Positions 15,526-16,018 of a DNA stretch of 27,393 nucleotides are shown here, in pieces. Made by a program: the position numbers and the translations under genes. Within the stretch, counting starts at the first letter, position 1. Every line of letters begins with the position of its first letter. The stretch covers positions 1-27,393 of the forward strand of contig NZ_CP053567.1 of assembly GCF_013155125.1 (NCBI RefSeq), given 5' to 3'. The DNA is from Pseudonocardia broussonetiae (lineage in GTDB: Bacteria > Actinomycetota > Actinomycetes > Mycobacteriales > Pseudonocardiaceae). The notes below the pieces were generated by a model. It was not told the DNA's origin, searched no databases, and was given only the letters and a program-made list of their open reading frames with translations.

Positions 15526-15531
15526 TAAGAT
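15526..15531 (+). promoter_or_regulatory. -10 box of the tmRNA-like RNA
   Basis: TAAGAT is a good actinobacterial -10 and would start transcription at about 15538, 11 nt before the folded RNA, which fits 5' processing by RNase P. No convincing -35 is seen at 17 bp. Confidence 0.5.
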
Positions 15532-15548: not shown

Positions 15549-15627
15549 GGGGATGGACGGCTTCGACTCGGCAGGAAAACCGCACGCGGACCGGCCGGGC
15601 ACCAGGGTTCGACTCCCTGCATCTCCA
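15549..15627 (+). ncRNA. Minimal tmRNA-like RNA: tRNA-like domain without a tag reading frame
   Basis: The 7-bp acceptor stem pairs GGGGATG (15549-15555) with CATCTCC (15620-15626). Its third pair is G-U, the alanine identity element shared by tRNA-Ala and tmRNA. The discriminator is A (15627), and CCA is not encoded. The 5' side continues GACGGCTTCGAC, matching the D-loop segment of actinobacterial tmRNA, with no D stem, as in tmRNA. A 6-bp helix (CTCGGC 15567-15572 with GCCGGG 15594-15599) takes the place of helix P2 and is capped by GG/CC and CCG/CGG pairs. The T arm is CAGGG-TTCGACT-CCCTG (15603-15619). There is no resume codon, stop or pseudoknot region. Acceptor pair 5-68 is A-U where typical tmRNAs have C-G, a compensated change that argues for a functional fold. 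Possible roles are alanine-charged decoy, SmpB sponge or mini-tag donor. Confidence 0.8.
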
Positions 15628-15633
15628 CGCCGA

Positions 15634-15667
15634 GCGCCGGGTCTCGCTCCCCCTCGACACCCGGTGC
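15634..15667 (+). terminator. Hairpin 3' of the tmRNA-like RNA
   Basis: GCGCCGGGT (15634-15642) pairs with ACCCGGTGC (15659-15667) around a 16-nt loop, with one G-U pair. It begins 6 nt after the discriminator and could terminate the RNA or guide 3' processing. It lies also in the leader of the lipoprotein gene. Confidence 0.45.
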
Positions 15668-15688
15668 TCTGCACCTCTGGAGGACTCC

Positions 15689-16018
15689 ATGCGTTCCCTC
15701 ATGCTCGTCGCCCCGCTCCTCGCGCTCGCCCTCACCGCCTGCGCCCCGCCCGCCGCGTCGACCGGCGCCTACCGGGACGCCGTCGAGGCACCCGGCCTGT
15801 TCGACCCGCAGCTCCTGCACCGCGTCGAGGCCGCCGGACATCGGGTGTGCGCCGACCTCTACGACGGCGAGACGTCGCTCGACGACCTCCGCGTCGGGTA
15901 CATCCGGGACGGCATCGGGGGCGACCTCTACACCACGGCGGGCGTCCACGTCGTCACCACGGAGGCCACACGGCACCTCTGCCCGACGATCGGGAGCCGG
16001 TCAGACCCGAGGGCCTGA
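15689..16018 (+). CDS. DUF732-like lipoprotein
   Basis: This is a 109-residue secreted lipoprotein. MRSLMLVAPLLALALTAC is a lipoprotein signal peptide with lipobox LTAC, so Cys18 would be lipidated. The mature part has HRVCADLYDGETSLDDL and a later ATRHLCPTI, a Cys pair like that in actinobacterial DUF732 proteins. TGGAGGA precedes the ATG at 15689. The frame is open further upstream, but without a site, and it would cross the RNA gene. Phage-encoded lipoproteins often alter the cell surface and can exclude superinfecting phages. That role is inference. Confidence 0.75.
   Translation: MRSLMLVAPLLALALTACAPPAASTGAYRDAVEAPGLFDPQLLHRVEAAGHRVCADLYDGETSLDDLRVGYIRDGIGGDLYTTAGVHVVTTEATRHLCPTIGSRSDPRA

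Follow-up and report, generated by a model that had tools for sequence, protein, structure and literature searches.

A phage-borne tmRNA reduced to its tRNA-like domain, and its relatives in phage genomes and Poribacteria

Mycobacteriophage DS6A is listed as carrying a tmRNA that consists of the tRNA-like domain (TLD) only (PMC4131195, PMC11915505). According to PMC4131195, a DS6A-like TLD molecule strongly inhibits tmRNA whether or not it can be charged, perhaps by titrating SmpB, and PMC11915505 reports inhibition of the endogenous tmRNA by a TLD-only form in E. coli; both sources attribute the result to Mao et al. 2009. In the 2025 tmRNA database, which has 97,179 sequences, the class "standard, no CDS" contains 9 unique ones, apparently including DS6A (PMC11915505). 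The same source describes jakobid and other mitochondrial tmRNAs that lack a tag frame and are kept together with SmpB.

The window analysed here, a complete contig of 27,393 bases, carries an RNA of this type. The first-pass annotation had described a 79-nt TLD-only tmRNA on a phage-like element, and the letters at 15549-15627 are as it said; the RNA scores 86.2 bits with R1, a covariance model built from 49 distinct relatives with the window excluded. Its further remark that no phage counterpart had been described does not stand, as DS6A was already listed as TLD-only (PMC4131195, PMC11915505). Like the DS6A RNA, the window RNA is phage-borne and has no tag frame, a TLD with little else (PMC4131195), and by description, which is how DS6A is known here, it belongs to the DS6A kind, already known. 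What is new is the size of the family, a conserved position ahead of capsid genes and a chromosomal form in Poribacteria: DS6A is one phage, whereas the relatives collected here comprise at least 119 distinct sequences, almost all of them from viral contigs. Neither a phage-wide TLD-only family nor a Poribacteria form was found in the open-licence literature, a weak absence given that scope. The RNA and its immediate surroundings are made up as follows (forward strand).

15549..15627, +: mini-tmRNA (TLD with a capped P2), 79 nt; R1 86.2 bits, RF00023 36.1 bits with the same ends
15549..15555 (RNA 1-7), +: acceptor stem, 5' strand, GGGGATG (sequence, R1 alignment)
15556..15566 (RNA 8-18), +: D-loop-like segment of 11 nt without a D stem, including CGGCTTCGA (sequence, R1 alignment)
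15567..15572 (RNA 19-24), +: P2 stub, 5' strand, CTCGGC (R1 alignment)
RNA 25-31: AGGAAAA between the P2 5' strand and the cap hairpin
15580..15589 (RNA 32-41), +: cap hairpin CCG-CACG-CGG (R1 alignment), helix 3 of the covariation count
RNA 42-45: ACCG between the cap hairpin and the P2 3' strand
15594..15599 (RNA 46-51), +: P2 stub, 3' strand, GCCGGG (R1 alignment)
RNA 52-54: CAC between P2 and the T arm
15603..15619 (RNA 55-71), +: T arm CAGGG-TTCGACT-CCCTG (R1 alignment)
15620..15627, +: acceptor 3' strand CATCTCC with U70 (RNA 72-78), then A73 (RNA 79) (sequence, R1 alignment)
15526..15531, +: TAAGAT, -10-like by eye, 17 bases 5' of the RNA
15632..15669, +: 11-bp hairpin GAGCGCCGGGT/ACCCGGTGCTC 3' of the RNA (fold), perhaps a terminator, without a T run
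15689..16018, +: gene for a 109-aa lipoprotein-like protein, DUF732 (lipobox by eye)

The tRNA-like domain is laid out as in bacterial tmRNA (RF00023): a 7-bp acceptor with G3-U70 at its third pair, a D-loop segment CGGCTTCGAC of the UUCGAC type without a D stem, a T arm and A73. P2 (CTCGGC/GCCGGG) forms six pairs, one of them U-G, and all 21 pairs form when the RNA is aligned to R1. The mRNA-like domain is missing. In the RF00023 alignment there is no tag frame and there are no pseudoknots, and just 34 nt separate the UUCGA segment from the region of the T arm; the window RNA is 79 nt long and lacks pseudoknots, resume codon and tag, against 372 nt for the host tmRNA. Equally, the D stem and anticodon arm of a tRNA are absent. 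The bases after 15627 are ACG, not CCA. Mitochondrial and plastid tagless tmRNAs, likened here by description, have also lost the mRNA-like part, and the mitochondrial ones are kept with SmpB; they differ in that their genes are partly permuted and the plastid cases measure about 65 bp (PMC11915505). Folded as a single sequence the window RNA is unremarkable (z -0.81): its T arm is missing from the minimum-energy structure and present in the centroid, and in a longer stretch around the RNA it appears in neither. A consensus scan around the RNA returned no promoter and no terminator.

At the gathering threshold, RF00023 reported no match in the window, and ARAGORN called neither a tRNA nor a tmRNA there. 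The Rfam search proposed in the first-pass annotation therefore gave a divided answer: RF00023 matches exactly 15549-15627 and runs over model ends 1-374 (E 4.7e-13), but its 36.1 bits lie below the curated cut-off of 47. Since the fold is not special, the Rfam score falls short and ARAGORN is empty, the identity of the RNA rests on comparison. RF00023 bits alone do not part it from tRNA-like matches, because a different host locus of 76 nt reaches 42.3 bits; moreover, the window copy was absent from the matches listed when the host genome was searched with RF00023, so this search misses the mini form. The mini RNAs of all 11 bacterial contigs matched by pattern score 52-70 bits on RF00023. 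The R1 model separates the classes. It gives the window RNA its 86.2 bits at E 2.8e-18 (R1 E-values are rough), relatives of other shapes outside the model 57.5-77.5 bits, and the host tRNA-like loci and full tmRNAs searched at most 33.2 bits. Besides the window, the best match was 42.8 bits across a phylum sample of 396 genomes (395 others) and 39 bits across 60 related genomes (59 others), in scans that scored a few candidates per genome, so that misses are possible. The window RNA thus belongs to the R1-defined phage mini-tmRNA family, at 86.2 bits against at most 42.8 in the 396 genomes.

The relatives were collected with three patterns. Pattern 1, a TLD with a short middle, matched 34 viral contigs; the looser pattern 2, with the 3' acceptor side free, matched 101 viral and 11 bacterial genome contigs (112 loci, 70 distinct sequences); and pattern 3, with the 5' acceptor side free, matched at least 120 contigs. 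At least 179 viral contigs matching pattern 2 or 3 were collected. The distinct relatives matching pattern 3 number at least 119, measure 69-82 nt (mode 79) and have viral contigs as their source, with no more than three bacterial ones. At least 78 pattern-3 loci were new; 52 were scored with R1, of which 51 reached at least 53 bits and one 44.6, the 26 loci L264-L289 being outside the scoring. The alignment of 49 distinct sequences (A1) leaves out the window, L036 (87 nt), the 60-70-nt forms and the L056/L065/L113 type, which is nevertheless counted among the at least 119, as is L222, whose acceptor has five pairs. The L056/L065/L113 type has a mini-tmRNA-like stretch that is ambiguous because, in L056, ARAGORN calls a 343-nt tmRNA across it. 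In four further forms of 60-69 nt (L067, L089, L094 and L095; 58.7-62.3 bits) P2 is a plain hairpin; because the caps differ among these short forms, they suggest more than one loss of the mRNA-like part.

On the 49 relatives RNAalifold finds the acceptor, P2, the cap hairpin and the T arm, 21 pairs in all, and the stems covary, as the first-pass annotation had asked of homologues. The covariation score is 0.597, against 0.126 +/- 0.012 in shuffled alignments and at most 0.130 in a slid control. Cells changed on both sides number 237 (63.7 +/- 7.9 in shuffles), and 97.2% of cells are paired (73.8% in shuffles). A weaker statistic counts the pairs that show any two-sided change and gives 12 against 10.7 +/- 0.6, a value reached by 21 of 500 shuffles. 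The search itself demanded GGGG, G7, GG and TTCGAC as well as most T-loop bases, so that the conservation of these is no evidence; it left free P2, the hairpin, the outer T stem and pairs 5-68 and 6-67. Among the 49, pair 5-68 is C-G in 32, G-C in 4, U-A in 4, A-U in 2, G-U in 1 and unpaired as aligned in 6. The A-U of the window RNA at this pair, which the first-pass annotation read as a compensated change, is therefore ordinary covariation. Six A1 acceptors (L050, L060, L070, L072, L077 and L099) show apparent mismatches at pairs 5 and 6 because their start was taken one base late; by eye, seven pairs form if it is moved one base earlier. A chance fold was rejected on the R1 score, obtained without the window in the model, and on the covariation.

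The identity element on which AlaRS chiefly relies is G3-U70. In the matches of pattern 2, which left the 3' acceptor side free, U70, C71, C72 and A73 occur in 69 of 70 distinct sequences; the exception, L063, lacks two bases relative to the otherwise identical L011 type. G3 stands opposite U70 in 119 of 119 distinct sequences among the matches listed in the pooled pattern-3 set, a figure for which RNA starts were chosen for best pairing and U70 was a criterion of the pattern. Pairs 4-69, 5-68 and 6-67 vary across the at least 119 distinct sequences while G3-U70 is constant; the GGGG is altered at its fourth base in at least 22 sequences, and there are at least 24 acceptor types overall. Phage isolates agree on G3-U70: BRock has GGGUUUG/CAAAUCC, and LuckySocke and GiJojo have GGGUCUG/CAGAUCC. 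An invariant G3-U70 suggests a use for alanylation as well and, amid freely varying pairs, makes that question directly testable.

Eight named phages carry the RNA.

Streptomyces phage Shaeky: R1 91.3 bits, full-length match
Streptomyces phage LuckySocke: R1 86.6 bits, full-length match
Streptomyces phage GiJojo: R1 86.6 bits, full-length match
Streptomyces phage pSt2308: R1 85.7 bits, full-length match
Streptomyces phage BRock: R1 77.3 bits, full-length match
Stenotrophomonas virus Jojan60: R1 84.9 bits, full-length match
Pontimonas phage phiPsal1: R1 75.9 bits, full-length match
Streptomyces phage Alone3 (L297), 787-863: decayed-looking copy, R1 58.8 bits

None of the eight records annotates an RNA at the site, and in two, Jojan60 and GiJojo, a protein call overlaps it. 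Seven other named phages that blast had suggested are not carriers by R1: Xanthomonas Rb1, Stenotrophomonas QDWS359, Pseudomonas SM1, Enterococcus EfsSzw-1, Tunturi_4 and Phass-1 score at most 36.8 bits, and for Niklas no match is listed. Moorella MCACPph1, at 30.0 bits, is not one either. A query of the L011 type returned no matches in phages, and distant blastn with one relative returned none in plasmids. Among 58 loci scanned with ARAGORN, 12 have tRNA genes and L056 alone has a tmRNA call over the mini RNA.

In phiPsal1 the order is prohead protease gene, two small genes, mini-tmRNA, major capsid gene. A homologue of this capsid lies 3' of the mini-tmRNA on the same strand in 14 further loci whose neighbours were examined (the capsid-adjacent loci are L011, L016, L025, L033, L039, L044, L059, L064, L087, L097, L105, L106, L233, L238 and L204). 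The 15 capsids share pairwise identities of 41-90% (median 58), and a site held constant 5' of the capsid gene despite this divergence argues for selection. Among 144 flanking proteins examined of 178 picked, one major-head family accounts for 21 and one head-protease family for 9; a single protein matches PTH2. In several capsid-adjacent loci a T-run hairpin and a -10-like box lie directly 5' of the RNA, by eye.

The window copy is not near the capsid gene; it lies 2.6 kb past the integrase gene and is followed by the DUF732 lipoprotein-like gene. The element has phage genes (terminase, portal, prohead protease, capsid, connector and tail) together with genes for a primase, a helicase, a tyrosine integrase, ParA and an FtsK-like protein, and is perhaps a phage-plasmid. 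It is probably circular: a 410-aa minus-strand frame containing the portal gene spans the joined contig ends, and the grade is held at probable because a 591-aa frame on the opposite strand spans them as well and the contig has no end repeat. Megablast of positions 1-25000 of the 27,393 found no match among plasmids and phages.

The host has the partners that such an RNA would need. Its full tmRNA, 372 nt, is intact on the host contig C1, with the SmpB gene about 1.1 kb away, and of its three RF-1 family proteins one, about 155 aa long, carries GGQ plus a basic tail and is ArfB-like by eye. In 46 viral records searched, many of them fragments, SmpB was found in none and an RF-1 family protein in one. 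Blastn found no second copy of the window RNA in the host genome, and the host tmRNA acceptor is GGGGGTG/CACCTCC against GGGGATG/CATCTCC in the window RNA. A fragment of host ssrA, an outcome that the first-pass annotation had named as fatal to its case, was rejected on these grounds, as was an attachment copy. In tRNA-dependent lysogeny, a tRNA supplied by the phage stands in for one that the host loses on integration (PMC10865867); this analogue was rejected too, because the host tmRNA is intact and could not be replaced by an RNA that lacks a tag frame.

The computed support for the reading that we favor, and which we hold to be somewhat more probable than not, consists of the structure and its covariation, the conserved alanylation identity, the rarity of such RNAs in related genomes and the presence of the host partners. 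On this reading the mini-tmRNA would be a phage-borne competitor of host tmRNA for SmpB and stalled ribosomes that stops trans-translation. It would be matured like a tRNA, given CCA and alanine by host enzymes via G3-U70 and A73, and bound by host SmpB and EF-Tu. Competing with host tmRNA for SmpB and stalled ribosomes, it would, because it has no resume codon, stop trans-translation and tagging in lysogeny or infection, leaving stalled ribosomes to be released by a back-up, for instance the host ArfB-like protein. The decoy or inhibitor role raised in the first-pass annotation, anchored in the inhibition reported for a similar molecule, is the best-supported function (PMC4131195, PMC11915505). 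A pure SmpB sink leaves the invariant G3-U70 unexplained, because the reported inhibition needs no charging (PMC4131195). The kept charging signal fits a charged competitor or an active rescue without a tag, and we therefore rank inhibition of trans-translation above active tagless rescue. In such a rescue, which we consider unlikely, Ala-mini-tmRNA with SmpB would enter stalled ribosomes, accept the nascent chain and add one alanine to it, ArfB or peptidyl-tRNA hydrolase would release the product, and phage proteins would be spared the degradation tag. The alanylation identity without exception, the tagless mitochondrial tmRNAs retained with SmpB in jakobids and others (PMC11915505), the PTH2 match in one of the 144 flanking proteins and the place before a capsid gene in 15 loci speak for it; a similar molecule, however, inhibits tmRNA even when it cannot be charged (PMC4131195), and of the 46 viral records a single one holds an RF-1 family protein and none holds SmpB.

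The tRNA-like acceptor and T arm, and the same-strand capsid gene 3' of the RNA in 15 loci, would also suit a sink for AlaRS or EF-Tu, or a tRNA-like processing signal at which the mRNA of the next gene is trimmed. This is distinctly unlikely, as P2, the cap and the GGAC 5' of the T arm are conserved to a degree that a tRNA would not need and the window copy is not near the capsid gene; the tmRNA-type D-loop was a search criterion and hence no evidence. The decayed-looking Alone3 copy, at 58.8 bits, speaks for a relic, a TLD left from a captured tmRNA and of no present use. Compensated changes run through the whole family, however (237 two-sided changes against 63.7), all 21 pairs of the window RNA are intact, so that the first-pass annotation was right to argue against a decayed fragment, and the site is kept across wide capsid divergence; a relic is quite improbable. 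Least credible of all is an odd but ordinary tRNA: the ends are tRNA-like and tRNA-like loci also score on RF00023, but there is no D stem and no 5-bp/7-nt anticodon arm, ARAGORN reports no tRNA, and the RNA stands more than 43 R1 bits above the next match in 396 genomes. An ordinary tRNA was rejected on the empty ARAGORN result, the R1 scores and this gap.

A chromosomal form of the RNA is found in Poribacteria, where eight metagenome-assembled genomes (MAGs; contigs L045, L046, L048, L049 and L052-L055) carry an 83-nt mini-tmRNA at 63-65 bits with R1 and three more of 84 genomes of the phylum carry a diverged version at 53-57 bits. One conserved gene adjoins the RNA in seven of the eight (in L053 a PLP-dependent decarboxylase gene takes this place), and on the other side a conserved gene is present in four of the eight (in L053 a Na/Ca exchanger gene). 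In alignment the RNA is far better conserved than its own upstream flank. Six of the eight MAGs have a full tmRNA with adjoining SmpB elsewhere in the genome, and the assemblies of the other two have neither. The Poribacteria form likely had a separate origin, because the arm that replaces P2 differs from that of the phage class.

The family turns a one-phage curiosity into a large class of RNAs (at least 119 distinct sequences against the 9 "standard, no CDS" entries of the database; PMC11915505) and points to ribosome rescue as a process that phages manipulate, while the Poribacteria copy asks whether a bacterium regulates its own trans-translation by a mini-tmRNA. A more far-reaching reading, which is doubtful, would be that phages have long kept, or repeatedly produced, an alanylated TLD-only tmRNA that, far from being a passive SmpB sink, enters stalled ribosomes with host SmpB, takes over nascent chains without a tag and rewires rescue in infection, and that in a Poribacteria lineage an RNA of this kind has become fixed on the chromosome as a second tmRNA gene beside the full one. 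The copies in phages of laboratory Streptomyces are open to deletion. Alone3 has the gene order of LuckySocke, whose mini-tmRNA is intact, and the two form a natural comparison pair. In L205 (Tunturiibacter phage Tunturi_4), at 1119-1530, an annotated RF-1 domain release factor gene lies directly 5' of a tmRNA-like 3' end.
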